Shown here one piece after another: positions 2,280-57,711 of a stretch of 64,000 nt of DNA. The stretch lies in assembly GCF_003967015.1 (NCBI RefSeq), contig NZ_AP017560.1:1798001-1862000 (forward strand), written 5' to 3'. Source of the stretch: Pseudanabaena sp. ABRG5-3. GTDB lineage: Bacteria; Cyanobacteriota; Cyanobacteriia; Pseudanabaenales; Pseudanabaenaceae. Under the pieces are notes generated by a model, which was not told where the DNA came from, did not search any database, and saw only the letters and a list, made by a program, of their open reading frames with translations. Both the position numbers and the translations under genes were made by a program. Position 1 is the stretch's first letter. Each line of letters begins with the position of its first letter.

Positions 2280-5200
2280 ATGAGCATTTATCGCAAGCGA
2301 TCGCTATTCCCAAATGTTCCACTCAACTTAGTGCTAACGGTTCCATTTGTGGTGCTAAGTGTTAGTGCTGTAGGACTGGTGGGCTATTTGTCCTATCGGA
2401 GTGGTCAATCAGCGATCGAAAATTTAGCAAATCAGCTCTTGCGTCAGACCTCGGAGCGAGTAAGCGATCGTCTCAACCATTATTTGTCCCTGCCCCATGA
2501 TGTCGTAGCGACCAATTCTCTAGCCGTAAAGCAGGGAACCTTAAATCCTAATGATCCTAAACAGATTCAACAACATTTATGGCAGCAAACCCTATTGTAT
2601 CCATCACTATCAGGGAATTTCTTTACAAATCAAACGGGGACACAAATTGGTTATGGACGGGTCTTGAGTGAGGATTTTCAGAAGCAAGTTCAGAAATTGA
2701 CGGGAGAAAATCTGCCTCTTGGCACAATCTATTTTGGGAATGTAACACCTCCTGAATCATTACAACGAAAATTCTTTTTAGTGGATTCCAATGGTCAACC
2801 AACCAAACTGGTGTACACAAATCCTGTTAATGTTCTGCAATTACCTTGGTATCGCCATGCTAAAGACGTGGGGAAACAAACTTGGACACCGATCCAAGTA
2901 ATTCAGGCTTTGCCATTACTAGGTATATGGTCAGTGGCTCCTATCTATAAAAGTAATGGTGAATTACAGGGGGGGTTCGCTACGTATTCTCTACTTTCAG
3001 ATGTCAGCACATTTCTGAACCAACTCCAAATTTCCCCAACAGGACAGATATTCATCATTGAGCGATCAGGTGATTTGGTGGCGACTTCGACCCTAGAGCC
3101 ACCCTATATAAGTCATCCCAATCTTACTCCTAAACGTTTGGCAGCTATCAATAGCAAAGATCTCCGCACGCGAGAAATTACCAAACATCTACTTAATAAA
3201 TTGGGAAACTTCCGTTCACTCCAAGCGATGCCGCCGTTAAGTGTGCTGGTCAATCAACAACGTCAGTTTGTTTATGTTAGCTCTTACCAACATCAAGAAG
3301 GATTGGATTGGCTGATTGTTACGGTTGTGCCAGAATCGGACTTTATGGCTGAAATTCAGTCAAATACGAATCAGACATTTGGCTTGATTCTAATCACACT
3401 ATTGTTTGCGATTCTCATCGGCTTGATCTCAGCGCATTGGATTGTAGCTCCGATTTTACGGATACGAGAATCTAGTCAAGCCATAACAGAGGGAAAATGG
3501 ATTGAATCTTTAGCCGAAGATAGTGCCATCTCCGAAGTTAATTCCCTATCAGCAGCATTTAATCAAATGTCTGAGCAATTGCGACAACTGCTAGACAACA
3601 AAAACTTGGAATTGCAAGACAAAGCATATTGGCTCAATATCCTCGTCGAAGCCGTGCCAGATGTGATCTTTATGAAGGATGGGGAAGGTAAATACTTAAT
3701 TGTCAATCGGCAAGGGCTAGACCTATTCGAGATGCCCGATAATTATTTTGGTAAAACCGATGGGGATATGGCAAAGTCGAATCAGTTCTATCATGATGCC
3801 CTGATTTACTGTACTGTCACTGATGAACTTGTTTGGCAGCGAAAAGAACTTAGTTATGTAGAAGAGTCTGTTCCCCAACGTGATGGGACATATCGTACTT
3901 TTGATGTAGTCAAGTTGCCACTCTTCAATGCCGATGGTAGTCGCAAGGGGTTAGTGATCATCGGTAGAGATATTAGTGAAAGGGCGAGGCTTGATGCCGA
4001 TCGCAAAAAAACTGAAATCCAACTTCAAAACAGTGAGGCAACTAATCGTGCTATTCTCAACGCGATTCCTGACCTCCTGCTCAGAATTGGTAGAGATGGC
4101 TCTTGCTATAGCTCGATTTCGCCCGTAAATGAGGACTCAGGGAAATATATTCCCGTTAAGACACATCTCTCAGAAGTCTTACCGCCAGACTTGCTAAAAT
4201 TTGAGCTACAGAAAATTGAGCAGGCTCTAGCAACGGGAGAGTTACAGGTTTGGGAACATCAAATTCTGAAATACGGTAAATTAACCTATGAAGAAGTCCG
4301 CGTATCTCCCTGTAGCCCTGATGAATGTTTAGTAATTGTGCGAGATATTACCGATCGCAAACAAGTGGAAATGGAATTAGCCAGAGCTGTCGAAGCCGCC
4401 GAATCTGCTAATAAAGCGAAGAGTGCATTTCTCGCAAATATGAGTCATGAGATTCGCACGCCAATGAATGGTGTCATTGGCATGGCACAACTTCTCGAAA
4501 CTACTGAACTTGATGAGGAACAAGCAGATTTTGTCAAAACGATTAAGGATAGTGGCGATGCTCTGTTAGTTGTGATCAATGACATTCTCGATTTCTCGAA
4601 AATTGAATCAGGACAGTTAGAAATAGAAGCAAAATCTTTTGATTTGGAAGAAGTTGTGATTGCAGTGTGTAAGTTGTTAGAAAGCCAAGCCCAATCTAAA
4701 AACCTAAATCTTCAATATGAATTTGCTCCAGATCTTCCTGATCTGATGATTGGCGATGCTACTCGTCTTCGCCAAATACTCTTAAATTTAATTGGGAATG
4801 CCGTTAAATTTACCCAAAAGGGACAAATTTTGCTATCCGTTACTGGAGAATTGTTGTCGCCATTTGGTACATCTGTGCTAAGTGAATATCAGCTCAATTT
4901 TGCGATCGCTGATACAGGTATTGGCATTCAAGGCGATCGCCTTGATAAATTATTTCAACCCTTCATGCAGTCTGATGCTTCTATTAGTCGTAAATATGGT
5001 GGCACTGGCTTAGGACTAGCCATCAGCAAACGTTTGGTCGAAATGATGGGTGGGGTTATTTGGGTAGAGAGTTTTGGGGAAATTGGTGGCAAGCCTCCAT
5101 TGGGTTGGGAAACCAATCTCAATACGCAGGGTTCAATATTTTACTTTACGATCACGGTATTGCTCACTCACATCAGCGAGCAGCAATTATCTTCAGAGGA

Positions 5201-9543: not shown

Positions 9544-10938
9544 ATGGCAAACAATAAGAAAGAACTAGTGGTTTTGGGTATAACTTTAGCCATCTTTGGC
9601 GGACTAGCTGGCGGCGGTTTTTTATTTTTTGGTCAAGGTAAAATCAACCCTAATGCCTCTTCGTCAATTAGTAATGCTAACTTTGACTTGACTACACGTA
9701 AAAGTGAAGGCGAAAGATTGCTGATTACTGCTGAGTCCAATGCTGACAAGGAGGCGGCGATCGCTGCCATTGCTAAAAAGGACTATGCCACCGCCACAGC
9801 TAAATTTGAAGCCTCACTTAGCAAACAAAGAAACGATCCTGAAGCCTTAATTTATTTGAATAATGCCAAAATCGGCGATCGCCCATCTTTAAAAGTTGCC
9901 GTGAGTGTACCTATTGGTGGCAACCTGAATGTCGCGAAGGAAATTTTACGGGGAGTTGCCCAAGCGCAAACGGAGGTGAATAATCAGGGGGGCATTAATG
10001 GAATGCCGCTTAAAATTGCGATCGTTAATGATGATAATAAAGCTGAAATTGGCGTAAAAGTAGCGCAGGCTCTAGTCCAAGACCAATCTATCCTTGCTGT
10101 CATCGGACATAACTCTAGCGAAGTTTCCATTGCGACCGTGCCGACCTATCAAGCGGGAGGACTAGTAATGATGTCTTCTACGAGTACCGCCAAAGAACTC
10201 TCAGGCATGGGTAGCTATATTTTTCGGACAGTACCTAATGTCAGATTTCAAGCCGATTCGCTATCGCATTACACAGTCAAGAAACTCAATAAGAAAAATA
10301 TTGGCATTTGCTTTAATTCAGAAGCCAAAGCTAGTCAATCGCTCAAGGAGGAATTTACGGCTGCCATATTTACGGATGGAGCCAAAGTTAGTCGCATCAA
10401 TTGCGATGTCGCTAGTCCAAGCTTTAGCGCTGATAAGGTAGTTGAGGATATGTTGAGCGATCGCGTTGATGCGCTGTTGTTATCCCCTGGGGTAGAAAAG
10501 ATCGAAAAGGGGACAGAAATCGCCATTATTGCCAGAAATCGTCTGTTATTGCTAGGTGACTCTACTTTGTATACTTTCAAAACTTTGCAGCTAGGGCAAA
10601 GTGCGATCGCTGACATGGTGTTAACCGTGCCTTGGCATCCTGAATTTCTAGCGAATAATCCCTTTTCCGCTAATGCCGTGAAGCTATGGGGTGGTGATGT
10701 TAACTGGCGGTCAGCAACGAGCTACGATGCGACCTTAGCAATTATCGGCGGATTGAAAAAAAGTGCTAATCGGGAAGGGTTACAGCAGGCTCTATCCAAT
10801 CCCAGCTTTGAGCTTGATGGCGCAGCAGGTAAAATCACTTTTCAACCATCAGGCGATCGGGCAAATGCTTCGATTTTGGTCAAAGTTAGCAAAGGCGATC
10901 GCTCAGGGGTTGGCTATGACTTTGTACCATTGCGCTAA
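9544..10938 (+). CDS. Membrane-anchored branched-chain amino-acid-type ABC substrate-binding protein
   Basis: 464 residues. An N-terminal hydrophobic helix (about residues 8-29, LGITLAIFGGLAGGGFLFF) without a lipobox or clear cleavage site suggests an uncleaved anchor. Residues about 65-115 look TPR-like (KKDYATATAKFEASL). From about residue 118 a periplasmic-binding domain of the LivK/Peripla_BP_6 type follows (LKVAVSVPIGG, GGINGMPLKIAIVNDDN, AVIGHNSSEV). No permease or ATPase gene is adjacent, so it may act with a remote transporter or as a sensor. The TPR-like spacer is unusual for a simple transport protein. Confidence 0.85.
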   Translation: MANNKKELVVLGITLAIFGGLAGGGFLFFGQGKINPNASSSISNANFDLTTRKSEGERLLITAESNADKEAAIAAIAKKDYATATAKFEASLSKQRNDPEALIYLNNAKIGDRPSLKVAVSVPIGGNLNVAKEILRGVAQAQTEVNNQGGINGMPLKIAIVNDDNKAEIGVKVAQALVQDQSILAVIGHNSSEVSIATVPTYQAGGLVMMSSTSTAKELSGMGSYIFRTVPNVRFQADSLSHYTVKKLNKKNIGICFNSEAKASQSLKEEFTAAIFTDGAKVSRINCDVASPSFSADKVVEDMLSDRVDALLLSPGVEKIEKGTEIAIIARNRLLLLGDSTLYTFKTLQLGQSAIADMVLTVPWHPEFLANNPFSANAVKLWGGDVNWRSATSYDATLAIIGGLKKSANREGLQQALSNPSFELDGAAGKITFQPSGDRANASILVKVSKGDRSGVGYDFVPLR

Positions 10939-53975: not shown

Positions 53976-55823
53976 TCACATAAGTTGAATGATTTCCATT
54001 GTCTTGACGCTGACTGTGCAGACTCTTTGTAGTAAATCGATGACTTGCTCTTTATAGTCAGCAAATTTGTAGGTATTGAAAAGCTTGGCAATGGTGGGAT
54101 CTTTGGGTTTCTTTTCTTTGTATTGATCGAGTATCCATTCAAGGGCGGAACGATTTCCGAGTTTGTATTCCCATGCGATCGCTGGTACATCTGTTAACTG
54201 GGTATTGTCATCAAGGCTAATCACGCCGTTAGTTTTATCGGCTTTGAGTTTGGCTTTGGGGATGTCTTTGGTGGCGATTTCAACTCGTTGTAGTCCGTAG
54301 GGTTCGATGGTTTCGTAGTTGAGATGTAAGTCCATTAGAGCTTTTCCCCATGATGCCCATTGATGGAAGTCTTCATAAAAGGGAAGTCGAGGAAATTCGC
54401 GTTTGAGGTTGAGTTCGTATTTGGTGCGGTAGGCGGGATGATGAAGGACTGCGTAGGTGTAATGGAAGATGTCGAGTTTGGTGATTGCCTTTTGCGTCGA
54501 GGTTTCTGCCCTTATCTCTTCCGTAGCAGGGGTTTCTGCCCTCACCCCTAGCCCCTCTCCCGCAGGAGAGGGGGATAAGATGGAAGCAGGAGTTTCTAAT
54601 CTCACCTCTTCCGTAGCAAGAGTTTCCGCCCTCACCCCCTGCCCCTCTCCCGCAGGAGAGGGGAGAAAGAGGAAGAGATGGTTGGTGATAGTTTGGAGGA
54701 CTTGGGGGAGGTTTTGGGTGATTTCTTCGTTTTGGAAGCGGAGGACTTGTAAGCCGTTGGCTTTTAGGTATGTGTCGCGATCGCTGTCTCGATCTTTTTG
54801 TAGTTCGTGGATACCGCCATCTAGCTCGATGACGAGTTTAGCCGTGTGGCAGTAAAAATCAACGATATATTGACCAATGTTGTGTTGTCTACGAAATTTT
54901 GCACCATGTAGCTGATTTGCGCGTAAACACTGCCATAACATCTGTTCTGCTGGAGTTTGCTTTTGCCGCAGTTCTTTAGCCTTTTGCAACAACACTTCAG
55001 GAATATCCCGTCTAGCCCCCACCAAACGCACCAAATCAGGCTCAATTTCCTGCTCTAATCTTGCTCCCCTCTCCTGCGGGAGAGGGGCTGGGGGGGAGGG
55101 CTGATAACGCTCGCGGAACCTCTCCAAAGCCCAATCAGTAATATTCTCAACGCGATCGCCTTTTTCATCATAACGATAAAGCGGAAGACATTGAGTTTTT
55201 TCGAGAAAATCTAAACAAACTACTTCTTGACTAATTAGTGCTTGAAATGTTTTGGAAGAGCCAATTCCAGAAATTGAAATATATTGATTGATTTCAGTAT
55301 TTCTAAATATATTAAACCATTGATAAGTTCTTCCATTAAAATGCTTATCTAAGTAAAGATATTGTTTTGTGTAAGGTCGATATACACTTTTAACAATCTG
55401 AGAACTATTAAATTTCTTAGATATTTTTCGCTTTATGTATTGAGTTGTTTCTGCATCCCATTTAATATCAAATTCTCTTATTGTTCCTTTTATTAACTGC
55501 TCCATATATCCATCAACAAGATATTTCACCTTGTCAATCAAGACTTCTGACGAGAAATCATAAACCCATTCATCACGTTGAGTAGCAACCCCTCTTGAAA
55601 AAAGTTGAAAAATAGCTTCTTCAGATTTACCAGCTTTTACGTCCTTATCAACCAAAGGCAATAAATCATCAAAATCATTATCAGTTTGATTTACCCAATT
55701 AGCCTTTTTATCTGGTGTAATCTGCTCAAAAGGAATTTGCTCAATCTTTGTATTTGCAAACCAATCCAGCTTTTCATCCTTAGTTTGCTCATCCTGCAAC
55801 GTAAAGTAAAAAATTCTCGCCAT
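53976..55823 (-). CDS. Type IIG/ISP restriction enzyme, TRD half, with inserted DUF559 domain
   Basis: 615 residues. Residues 1-240 and about 445-615 match the target-recognition part of nuclease-methyltransferase enzymes (RIFYFTLQDEQTKDEKLDW, WVNQTDNDFDDLLPL, KLDIFHYTYAVLHHPAYR). Between them lies an insertion of about 200 residues: APLPQERGAR-like and SPSPAGEG-like repeat-encoded segments surrounding a DUF559 nuclease domain (about 273-385: KQTPAEQMLWQCLR, FRRQHNIGQYIVDFYC, LVIELDGGIHE). In the uninterrupted family the two flanks are contiguous. It follows the methyltransferase half (55981-57711) on the same strand after a repeat-filled gap. Confidence 0.78.
   Translation of the reverse strand: MARIFYFTLQDEQTKDEKLDWFANTKIEQIPFEQITPDKKANWVNQTDNDFDDLLPLVDKDVKAGKSEEAIFQLFSRGVATQRDEWVYDFSSEVLIDKVKYLVDGYMEQLIKGTIREFDIKWDAETTQYIKRKISKKFNSSQIVKSVYRPYTKQYLYLDKHFNGRTYQWFNIFRNTEINQYISISGIGSSKTFQALISQEVVCLDFLEKTQCLPLYRYDEKGDRVENITDWALERFRERYQPSPPAPLPQERGARLEQEIEPDLVRLVGARRDIPEVLLQKAKELRQKQTPAEQMLWQCLRANQLHGAKFRRQHNIGQYIVDFYCHTAKLVIELDGGIHELQKDRDSDRDTYLKANGLQVLRFQNEEITQNLPQVLQTITNHLFLFLPSPAGEGQGVRAETLATEEVRLETPASILSPSPAGEGLGVRAETPATEEIRAETSTQKAITKLDIFHYTYAVLHHPAYRTKYELNLKREFPRLPFYEDFHQWASWGKALMDLHLNYETIEPYGLQRVEIATKDIPKAKLKADKTNGVISLDDNTQLTDVPAIAWEYKLGNRSALEWILDQYKEKKPKDPTIAKLFNTYKFADYKEQVIDLLQRVCTVSVKTMEIIQLM
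54537..54664. repeat. Two GC-rich palindromic repeats inside the restriction gene
   Basis: Two copies of a ctcccgcaggagag hairpin with flanking cctcacccc, at 54537-54575 and 54632-54670, within a tandem unit of about 100 bases that encodes ETPATEEIRAE-like segments. They lie downstream (in gene direction) of the DUF559 segment. A third copy, 55063-55105, lies on its other side. Confidence 0.8.
55063..55105. repeat. GC-rich palindromic repeat upstream of DUF559 segment
   Basis: cccctctcctgcgggagaggggctggg, same family as the copies at 54.5 and 55.9 kb; it is read in frame as PSPPAPLPQERGAR. Confidence 0.8.
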
Positions 55824-55881: not shown

Positions 55882-55975
55882 GCCCTCACCCCCCAGTCCC
55901 CTCTCCCGCAGGAGAGGGGGAGCCAGAGTTTTTCTTGTTCCCCTCTCCCGTAGGAGAGGGGCTAGGGGTGAGGGC
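55882..55975. repeat. Paired GC-rich palindromic repeats splitting the restriction gene
   Basis: Two copies (ctctcccgcaggagag and ctctcccgtaggagag) form a 94-base unit with inverted ends gccctcacccc and ggggtgagggc. It lies exactly between the methyltransferase half and the TRD half and brings stop codons into the frame. Confidence 0.85.
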
Positions 55976-55980
55976 AAATC

Positions 55981-57711
55981 TTATTTATGAACTTTCACTA
56001 AAAACATTATAGCGACACCAGTTTGAATACCAAAGACATTGTTTTTCGTTCCAGAAATTTTAGGATTACTCCTCACATCTGACTGCGTATCAACAATGTA
56101 AATATAATCAAACTCATCTGCCAAACATCTACGCAATCCATCAAATGTTTGCGAATCAATAAACGAGCGATTGGTGATAAACGCAACTAAACCATTCTTG
56201 CCAAGGCGATCGCTTGCCCACCGATAGAACCGCGTATACATATCATAGACAGCAATTTGATTTTGCGCCGTTCCCTGCTTGATGTAAGTCGCCTTAATCT
56301 GTTTATCTATTTGTCCATAAACCCGATTCGCATTATTTTGATTGAAATTCTCTTGCCATGCGTTGTAAGGCGGATTGCCAATAATCACCGAAATCTTGCG
56401 ATCGTTCTGATTCTGAATCCTAGCCGTATTCTGCACACTCATCGCAAACAAATCAAACTGCTTCCCCTCAAACCCACAATGATCCAGCGTATCCACCAGA
56501 CAAATATTCTTAAACTCCTCATACTTATTCATCTTCTGAGCATAGGTAAACTCAATATTCAAATTCGCAATGTAATAGGGCAGAATCGCCATCTCATTAC
56601 AATGAATCTCATGCTTATACTTATGCTCCAACTTATGCGCGGGCAAATACTCAATCAACTCCGTTACATAGGTTCCCGTCCCCGTACAAGGATCGAGAAT
56701 CTCCACCCCCTCATCCGATAGCAACTTCCCAAAATGCTTATGCACCAAATGATCCGCACTCTCGATCATAAATCGCACAATCTCATTGGGCGTGTACACA
56801 ATTCCCAACCGATCCGCCGCCTTCGGATTATAAGCCTTGTAAAAATTCTCATAGAGAGCCTTCAGGAACTTCTGCTTCTCATGATGATTAGCAATATTCT
56901 CCGAACTACGGCGAATCACCGCATAGTAATACTCAATACTCTTCAACGTGTTACGGCGCGTCGTTCCTGTAAAAAACGTATCGATCATCGCCGACAACTC
57001 ACGCGCAATATTATTCTCCCGATGAAACTGCGACTCATGGAAAATATTTGTAAAAATATCCTCAGTGAGAATGTGCTGAATTAACATCTCATGCACATCA
57101 AAAATCTCAATCTCAGGATTAATCGACTGCCGACATACCTCTAAAAACGCATTGCGGCGATCGCGAAACTGTTGATTTTCCTTCTCCGCAACCTGAATCG
57201 TCTCGCGTAATTTTTCAAGAATATTGGGAATGTCTTCCTTAAATTTCGTAATCGCCGCCCGAAAGTCTCTTACCTCTGGACGTTCATAATCGACAAAAAT
57301 ATTTAACAGGCGATCGAGCGCATCCGCATCCCGCATCGCCACTCGCCCCACCTCACGGCTATTCTGGATTAAGACCGCATTTTGAGAATCCTCAAACAAA
57401 ATATTTTCATCGGGATAGCCCTTCTCAAACTTCTTCTCAATTTCTAGATCCAGCTTGTCGTATTCATCCTTACTTTCCCACCAGCCATGCTCCAACCTAA
57501 TCGCATCCTTAATCGTGCCATCAGGAAAAACGGTTGTATTGAACTTAGTCTTAAAGTCCAATTCAGGAACCAGTAAATAATTGCGAGGCTTACAATAATC
57601 ATTCAATAAGCGCTCAAAAGCATTGCGAATGCTGGTTTCTTTTTTCGAGCCACCATAGCGAATAATTTTTTCAACCTCCGCCTGATACTGTGTAACCAGC
57701 AATCTTGACAT
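55981..57711 (-). CDS. Type IIG/ISP restriction enzyme, nuclease-methyltransferase half
   Basis: 576 residues. N-terminal PD-(D/E)xK-like nuclease: Pro63-Asp64 in VFPDGTIKD and Glu79-Ser-Lys81 in GWWESKDE. Methyltransferase motif I is LDPCTGTGTYV (about 339) and motif IV is IIGNPPYNAW (NPPY 446-449), typical for N6-adenine methylation. The end GVAIMFLVKVHK stops just where uninterrupted homologues continue into the part encoded by the next gene. No helicase domain, so a single-chain type IIG-like layout. Confidence 0.87.
   Translation of the reverse strand: MSRLLVTQYQAEVEKIIRYGGSKKETSIRNAFERLLNDYCKPRNYLLVPELDFKTKFNTTVFPDGTIKDAIRLEHGWWESKDEYDKLDLEIEKKFEKGYPDENILFEDSQNAVLIQNSREVGRVAMRDADALDRLLNIFVDYERPEVRDFRAAITKFKEDIPNILEKLRETIQVAEKENQQFRDRRNAFLEVCRQSINPEIEIFDVHEMLIQHILTEDIFTNIFHESQFHRENNIARELSAMIDTFFTGTTRRNTLKSIEYYYAVIRRSSENIANHHEKQKFLKALYENFYKAYNPKAADRLGIVYTPNEIVRFMIESADHLVHKHFGKLLSDEGVEILDPCTGTGTYVTELIEYLPAHKLEHKYKHEIHCNEMAILPYYIANLNIEFTYAQKMNKYEEFKNICLVDTLDHCGFEGKQFDLFAMSVQNTARIQNQNDRKISVIIGNPPYNAWQENFNQNNANRVYGQIDKQIKATYIKQGTAQNQIAVYDMYTRFYRWASDRLGKNGLVAFITNRSFIDSQTFDGLRRCLADEFDYIYIVDTQSDVRSNPKISGTKNNVFGIQTGVAIMFLVKVHK

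Follow-up and report, generated by a model that had tools for sequence, protein, structure and literature searches.

Why does a complete nuclease domain lie in frame, between palindromes, inside the gene of another enzyme? The question is raised by one locus of Pseudanabaena sp. ABRG5-3 (contig NZ_AP017560.1), in a stretch of 64,000 nucleotides that is called the window. The domain is DUF559, a common family of 'unknown function'. As DUF559 was found between hairpins in very different bacteria, often in frame within genes, essential ones included, it is probably the mobile gene that spreads these repeats, which have long lacked an explanation.

The interrupted type ISP gene and its relatives

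Pfam analysis identified a 615-aa ORF (53976-55823, minus strand) as the C-terminal specificity half of a type ISP restriction-modification (R-M) enzyme with DUF559 inside. The match to Type_ISP_C (PF18135, E 1e-89) falls in two stretches, and residues 279-382 form a complete DUF559 domain (PF04480, profile positions 4-107 of 109, E 5e-39), located at 54675-54989 on the minus strand (contig 1852675-1852989, E 1.3e-39). An earlier sequence-only reading had claimed that about 200 extra residues including a complete DUF559 interrupt the TRD half. Comparison of 30 homologous loci confirmed this: the interruption is an in-frame insert of 618 nt (palindromes, DUF559 and a further palindrome; minus strand), bounded by ...RFRERY and ITKLDIF... 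in the specificity half, where 22 of the 30 loci have a 12-nt linker. The insert had been placed at 54489-55100; it stands as such, and by our own count its boundaries are 54486-55103.

Palindrome 1 (54538-54573, plus strand, core 54552-54573) consists of a pyrimidine head, GCCCTCACCCC, followed by the hairpin CCCCTCTCCCGCAGGAGAGGGG. Palindrome 2 (54628-54663, plus strand, core 54642-54663) is oriented in the same way, and palindrome 3 (55066-55101, minus strand, core 55066-55087), on the far side of DUF559, is inverted relative to both; the DUF559 of the window therefore lies between inverted copies. Read in frame, palindromes 1, 2, and 3 give LSPSPAGEGLGVRAE, LPSPAGEGQGVRAE, and PSPPAPLPQERG, respectively. 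A separate 576-aa ORF (55981-57711, minus strand; Pfam ISP_coupler and N6_Mtase, and junction comparison) encodes the enzyme's other half, which comprises coupler and methyltransferase. Sequence and junction comparison revealed a REPIN-like inverted palindrome pair between the two ORFs (55882-55975), which brings a stop and divides the ISP gene into its 576-aa and 615-aa parts. In 22 relatives the junction of methyltransferase and specificity halves is open and in frame, with a linker of 12-27 nt in 21 of them and of 51 nt, containing an in-frame palindrome, in the remaining one (L201). The earlier reading did not contain this splitting pair.

At the position of the 618-nt insert, both empty and filled sites were observed. 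The bare 12-nt linker (QDST, NDKT, and similar) was present in 22 of the 30 homologous loci; six were filled, the window's own copy included, and two (L210, L211) could not be assigned. DUF559 with palindromes occupied the linker in three loci, namely the window copy (L193) and two from genomes of the same class (L203, L207). The other three filled loci carried palindromic inserts without DUF559: palindromes only in L201, a different palindrome in L200, and a Y1 transposase (PF01797, 1.5e-13) with its own palindromes in L202. One and the same linker therefore takes both RAYT-type and DUF559-type cassettes. Empty sites, which the sequence-only reading had proposed to look for, thus exist, and the family-wide presence of DUF559 at this place, which it had named as evidence against itself, is contradicted by the 22 bare linkers. 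DUF559 as a family-wide domain of ISP enzymes is rejected on the same count.

The genome of the window contains three DUF559 matches (L001, L002, L003), each with its own palindrome family. The hairpins flanking the window's DUF559 (L001) are of the CCCCTCTCC type and occur at 44 genomic places at up to 3 mismatches; the same pattern read backwards occurs at none. The palindrome of the free-standing L002, GCCCCCCTAGCCCCCCAATTCTGGGGGG, was found at 7 places at up to 3 mismatches. L003 is located in an MmeI-type enzyme, inside its methyltransferase domain, and the exact pattern of its palindrome, ACCTCCCCTAGCCCCTCCTT...AAGGAGGGG, occurs at 3 places genome-wide, all in or around the L003 gene. 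The flank of L003 is 86% identical to the Pseudanabaena contig L061. All three families are built alike: the pyrimidine head is separated by a few bases from a hairpin whose 5' arm mirrors it, often with AACAAGA on the 3' side. The GC-rich repeats on both sides of the nuclease, read in frame, had been described correctly, but the single repeat family that had been assumed gives way to three families for three genes.

Not every copy can be attributed to the nuclease. Among 15 palindrome loci read in the window's genus, seven were located inside MITEs, six of them in the one that has ACTGATGTTACGTGG as its terminal repeats and one in another. Terminal inverted repeats and a target duplication were seen for such MITE-borne copies, and the one clean empty site of the genus comparison was that of the ACTGATGTTACGTGG MITE, with an apparent 3-bp duplication. 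The palindrome copy number in this genus is therefore partly the work of another transposase, and copy number alone cannot be credited to DUF559. For DUF559 cassettes, the contigs fetched yielded no empty site that could be defined at the nucleotide level together with a duplicated target; the matches were shared host genes. No hairpin indels appeared in the alignments when syntenic regions from two or three genomes were compared. Bare palindromes also enter genes. In all 20 genomes compared (of 26 in the genus), the reading frame runs through the MnmE linker NKIDL...IPIVKTAA without a break, and by eye this linker contained palindromic inserts in 12 and none, or degenerate or other ones, in 8.

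Hairpins flanking DUF559 across genomes

The association of DUF559 with hairpins was assessed in a first sample of the best 80 DUF559 loci among the matches listed, ranked by similarity to four seeds, on contigs of one genome per species. Record titles included Chloroflexi, Bacteroidales, Proteobacteria, Planctomycetota, cyanobacteria, Armatimonadota, Nitrospirae, Gracilibacteria, and a Methanophagales archaeon. Pyrimidine-rich hairpins were present on both sides in 54 of 77 DUF559 loci (the best 80 minus L040, L078, and L105), and control windows had them in 12 of 3264 cases. When one flanking hairpin sufficed, the figures were 72 of 77 and 242 of 3264, respectively. The sequence-only reading had claimed that free-standing DUF559 genes are often found with such repeats, and that DUF559 genes elsewhere showing no such association would speak against it; both-side and one-side counts alike bear the claim out, and the contrary case fails with 72 of the 77 loci having a flanking hairpin. 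Purine-first hairpins occurred on both sides at only 2 of 77 loci, and other ORFs of the same contigs had both-side hairpins in 8 of 806 cases. Chance as the cause of the association is rejected given the excess over control windows. Nor do rRNA or known structured RNAs explain the shared flanks, as Rfam gave only a SAM riboswitch and tRNA, in 7 loci.

The association was also observed without any motif. When the 500 bp upstream were compared with the reverse complement of the 500 bp downstream, with windows in the same contigs as controls, a terminal-inverted-repeat score of at least 14 was reached by 56 of 79 DUF559 loci (L078 left out) compared to 66 of 3731 control windows. A second sample was drawn from whole genomes, the same set of 194 of the phylum as below, and comprised the loci with the highest scores among those listed; loci at contig ends were left out (5 of 29 for DUF559, 4 of 15 for Vsr, 3 of 30 for Y1). 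Both-side hairpins were found at 22 of 24 DUF559 loci, 0 of 11 Vsr loci, and 0 of 27 Y1 loci. For 27 DUF559 genes on viral contigs, 21 were testable (6 with short flanks left out), of which 13 had inverted repeats (score ≥ 18) and 8 had none.

Among the 54 loci with hairpins on both sides, 28 were callable; at 25 of these the nearest hairpins were inverted, and at 3 they were direct. A mirror head was present in 120 of 178 hairpins flanking DUF559, compared to 20% after shuffling of the neighbors. At several loci whole palindrome units stand in direct orientation on both sides of DUF559. At the Pedobacter locus L065, DUF559 and a palindrome unit form a three-copy tandem array of 561 bp units that are 83% and 93% identical, which suggests ongoing rearrangement. 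The E. coli DUF559 gene ycjD is accompanied by TM-type palindromes on the 3' side alone. The queried fabI-sapF segment was covered to at least 80% in one place in 3363 of 5426 genomes; in 11 of 30 evenly sampled genomes from this comparison only the fabI part, or less, was recovered, and therefore it provides no clean empty site.

At the genome level, 194 genomes of the phylum were divided into two groups (family f28 and the window's class), 21 genomes belonging to neither being left out; a best E under 1e-15 was taken as strong DUF559, so that the others include weak matches. In f28, the CCCTCTCC hairpin was present in 29 of 39 strong-DUF559 genomes (453 copies) compared to 10 of 45 others (25 copies; Fisher 2.5e-6, kinship ignored), and in the window's class in 38 of 48 (649 copies) compared to 15 of 41 (138 copies; Fisher 7.5e-5, kinship ignored). 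The difference persisted in f28 genomes without Y1 (13 of 20, 240 copies, compared to 7 of 37, 12 copies; p 2e-5, kinship ignored), and among DUF559-positive f28 genomes Y1 had no significant effect (p 0.27). Against this association count the genomes that hold hairpins without a strong DUF559 (15 of 41 in the class, with up to 28 copies, and 10 of 45 in f28), as well as the 10 of 39 strong-DUF559 genomes of f28 that lack the CCCTCTCC type.

Within a genome, palindromes tend to be of the type that goes with the local DUF559. For 50 of the 80 loci, chosen with known flank types, 49 genomes were searched (L097 left out). Where DUF559 was flanked by CCCTCTCC, copies elsewhere had a median of 28.5 and were found in 24 of 24 genomes; the medians of the other two groups were 0.5 and 1 (p 1.2e-4). 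Cognate copies of the CCCTCCT type numbered 0, 1, 1, 4, 1, and 26 in six genomes (p 0.009). Counting against the match, at least 5 CCCTCTCC copies were present in 9 of 25 genomes with DUF559 flanked otherwise, made up of 8 of the 19 lacking both flank types and 1 of the 6 having CCCTCCT. DUF559 protein identity correlated with hairpin-arm similarity over 44 loci (Mantel r 0.45, reached in 0 of 5000 permutations, kinship ignored).

DUF559 as a guest in other proteins

The in-frame position in the window is not an isolated case. In 26 of the 80 loci DUF559 was located in an open frame of at least 260 aa, four of these ending at the contig end. Pfam identified as hosts the R-M proteins HsdR (L033, L038, L051, L055), HsdM or N6-methyltransferase (L043, L058), MmeI (L003, L109), and Eco57I-type enzymes (L083, L219), as well as MetH (L071, L072), HrpA (L053), class I tRNA synthetases (L054, L064, L082), an EPSP synthase fused to NUDIX (L062), and a histidine biosynthesis protein with DUF559 at its N-terminus (L101). 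Further hosts were PriA (L143, L145, L147, L162, L272), GHMP kinase (L140, L152, L167, L289), M14 peptidase (L148, L163, L285), PrmA (L278), UvrD-type helicase (L286, L287), and a radical SAM protein with DUF559 at its C-terminus (L274). On both sides of the guest, the palindromes are translated in frame (SPSPxGEG, PPLEGGSKS).

Several hosts are occupied at the same site. The insertion point in HsdR is common to contigs from Chloroflexi (L038), Brocadiaceae (L051), and Methanophagales (L055); both MetH genes share one, as do both HrpA genes (L044, L053), and L271 and L273 have the same PriA sequence on either side of the insert. Compared with solved structures lacking DUF559, the insert lies in each case between parts that align: it has 175 residues against 4 in 8g3h for MetH, and 147 residues against none in 9ggr for HrpA. 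In PriA the insert is located directly before the helicase core (compared with 4nl4), and in HsdR it comprises about 200 residues against about 30 in 4be7, in a weak alignment. The PriA-borne DUF559 form one clade (98/86) from genomes of four genera, and those of GHMP kinase and M14 peptidase take several positions in a tree of few columns and many weak forks. The same-site clades of PriA and of a radical SAM protein would also fit a single insertion followed by inheritance. The nuclease is under purifying selection in close pairs, dN/dS being 0.07-0.27 in the 9 of 11 pairs for which a value was obtained (two of these with saturated dS). Pfam scans of the DUF559-bearing proteins (E limits from 1 to 1e-6) detected no Hint or splicing domain.

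An AlphaFold model of the window's DUF559 domain was built from an 80-row alignment (mean pLDDT 82). It aligned with 3hrl, a DUF559-type protein, at Z 17.8 and 48% identity, with I-Bth0305I at Z 12.6 (VIA-align, 95 aligned residues, rmsd 2.8), and with Vsr at Z 9.9. Accordingly modeled, DUF559 is predicted to have the I-Bth0305I-like catalytic fold. The motif E-x-D-G-x-x-H was conserved in 78 of 80 and in 60 of 62 DUF559 domains. T:G mismatch repair is the trait of the Vsr endonuclease, and cleavage of empty alleles followed by gene conversion that of EDxHD homing endonucleases. A Vsr identity of the window's domain was rejected, since the ORF had no match to PF03852 among Pfam families at E up to 1; the fold is related all the same, as the Vsr alignment indicates.

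A probable mobile element, rival readings and known counterparts

We consider it probable that DUF559 and its palindromes form a mobile element acting like a RAYT/REP pair, with an unrelated nuclease of the Vsr/homing type. The mobile cassette of repeat, nuclease, and repeat that the sequence-only reading had suggested gains support from the 22 empty ISP sites and from the 54 loci with hairpins on both sides. DUF559 would be the nuclease gene of small mobile elements, and the palindromes with a mirror head their ends and non-autonomous offspring. The nuclease, by its Vsr/I-Bth0305I fold, may recognize the folded head-plus-hairpin and nick or cut beside it, after which transposition or homing-style repair might place a copy of the cassette, or of a palindrome pair on its own, at a new site. 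Stop-free palindromes in frame in interdomain linkers would be tolerated by the hosts, and therefore R-M enzymes, PriA, HrpA, MetH, and tRNA synthetases could keep working with the guest, which presumably remains in the host protein. That DUF559 mobilizes triplex-forming palindromes and inserts in frame in housekeeping proteins without splicing, as a widespread class in bacteria and at least one archaeon and as the missing mobilizer of intrastrand-triplex repeats, is a tentative proposal that we hold at a little under an even chance. There is a substantial chance that the DUF559/palindrome element is a class of its own.

The main rival, to which we give roughly one chance in a handful, sees DUF559 as a homing-type endonuclease that cuts either alleles without DUF559 or the palindromes and spreads through recombination. 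In that case the palindromes would serve as its targets or landing sites and would not be moved by it. I-Bth0305I is indeed the closest characterized fold besides DUF559 itself, a DUF559 gene is filed under the EDxHD homing family in the available part of PMC9403480, and the same site is occupied in HsdR of three distant contigs and in 7 priA, 2 metH, and 2 hrpA genes; several loci have direct whole units on both sides, which would be expected had the gene landed between repeat halves. Homing does not readily account, however, for nearest hairpins that are inverted, for hosts that are many unrelated genes, for cognate copies elsewhere in 24 of 24 genomes with CCCTCTCC-flanked DUF559, or for the separate palindrome families of the three DUF559 genes in the window's genome, two of which have copies away from the gene.

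RAYT/TIRYT tyrosine or other transposases might instead move the palindromes, with DUF559 as a passenger. REP and RAYT set the precedent, MITEs carry some copies in the window's genus, and GGGGWSAS terminal repeats, which flank some tyrosine transposases (PMC3733652, as far as its available text goes), resemble the GGGGTGAG head. Yet a Y1 (PF01797) search of the window's genome gave no match, even though it contains 60 hairpins of the searched stem type, the DUF559 effect in f28 holds without Y1, whose own effect is not significant, and not one of 27 Y1 loci had hairpins on both sides. RAYT/Y1 as the mobilizer is weakened by these findings, and we regard a passenger role as improbable. Just as improbable in our judgment is that DUF559 is a Vsr-like repair nuclease or restriction domain, with palindromes alongside by chance as insertion hot spots or regulatory terminators. 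Several DUF559 hosts are methyltransferases, and VsrA (DUF559) causes SOS in Caulobacter lacking a methyltransferase, according to the available part of PMC12907096. Vsr loci, however, lack the hairpins (0 of 11), and among the hosts are PriA, MetH, HrpA, tRNA synthetases, and a histidine biosynthesis protein. Were this a passive hot spot, other genes would be expected there just as frequently, but only 8 of 806 other ORFs had both-side hairpins.

The reading of DUF559 and palindromes as one mobile element, if true, would tie DUF559 to the intrastrand-triplex repeats and explain both, and it would provide a second, chemically different route to a RAYT-like spread of palindromes and an example of a nuclease living within essential proteins. 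It also bears on the recent proposal, in the available part of PMC12907096, that a DUF559 protein is a Vsr acting in mismatch repair; a DUF559 gene was placed among EDxHD homing endonucleases (PMC9403480, likewise in part). Within the open-access literature in PMC, no link between DUF559 and palindromic repeats was found in the text available; papers containing both 'DUF559' and 'palindromic' were, by their abstracts, on CRISPR/secretion systems and NAD metabolism. The palindromes themselves are already known, as are RAYT/REP as the closest analogue and RPEs as the precedent for in-frame palindromes.

Intrastrand-triplex (TM) repeats also go by the name PIT. As described in the available part of Holder et al. 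(2015; PMC4666352), TM repeats consist of a mirror head and a hairpin, occur in inverted pairs, are very frequent in certain enterobacteria and cyanobacteria and are tied to genome instability; in E. coli K-12 they are always intergenic and without mobile-element association, and that part names no mobilizer. The window's palindromes share this layout, a polypyrimidine head mirroring the arm, but unlike those repeats they are linked to DUF559 and lie in frame inside genes. Rickettsia palindromic elements are likewise inserted in frame into coding genes; no associated nuclease is described for them in the available part of PMC10969869, whereas here there is DUF559. Inteins, too, nest a nuclease in frame in essential proteins, but the DUF559 hosts contain no Hint or splicing domain at the Pfam thresholds used. 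With the EDxHD homing enzyme I-Bth0305I, DUF559 shares a related fold and the same-site occupancy of conserved genes; unlike it, DUF559 has no splicing element in Pfam scans, and its palindromic ends multiply independently. The closest likeness is to RAYT/REP (REPtron) and REPINs: a single-domain nuclease gene between inverted palindromes, palindromes scattered singly and as inverted pairs, copies also within genes, and enzymes that tend to their own palindrome family. At the window locus the gene is flanked by inverted, genome-repeated palindromes as in a REPtron, and neither an HUH/Y1 transposase nor a GTAG tag is present, the heads, GCCCTCACCCC..., being by eye mirrors of the arm. RAYT is an HUH Y1 transposase and REP carries a GTAG tag, whereas here the enzyme is DUF559, of Vsr/PD-(D/E)XK fold, and the palindrome bears a mirror (triplex) pyrimidine head.

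In-frame insertions in ISP and MnmE genes

The linker of the type ISP restriction-modification gene that is occupied by DUF559 in the window (54486-55103) holds a different gene at L202, a homologous ISP locus; there, on the reverse strand, a Y1 (RAYT-like) transposase is inserted in frame, together with AAGGGGCTTAAGCCCCTTG palindromes of its own and with tandem repeats. Within G131, a single one of the genomes searched, the specificity half of the ISP enzyme was matched 24 times, apparently by a large set of paralogues, and many of these matches showed a gap at the same linker.

Palindromic inserts were also observed in frame in mnmE orthologues of the window's genus (12 of the 20 genomes compared, L221-L240). 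They are located in the GTPase between NKIDL and IPIVKTAA, and their length varies.

Palindrome pairs within MITEs

At loci L004-L008 and L017, MITEs were detected whose terminal repeats are ACTGATGTTACGTGGAA. The interior of these elements consists of a palindrome pair in some copies and of unrelated sequence in others. One clean empty site was observed, with an apparent 3-bp duplication.

Arrangements of DUF559 genes

In Pedobacter, a unit of DUF559 and palindrome is present three times in tandem, with 561 bp per copy (L065:9781-11463). In two Bacteroidota, a free-standing DUF559 gene lies between putative trpB and trpA, named by eye from the sequence (L102, ~9941-10336; L111, ~3157-3567). 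Small contigs of the viral collection (L116-L118, L120-L123, L125, and L135) share a related flank design around DUF559: hairpins of the GGGGG type, and after them a second small one.

The DUF559 gene ycjD of E. coli K-12 (L020:6200-6420) ends within a triplex-type palindrome, and a further palindrome of this type is located 3' of the gene. Between lineages, ycjD and the eef operon replace each other, according to PMC12817139.
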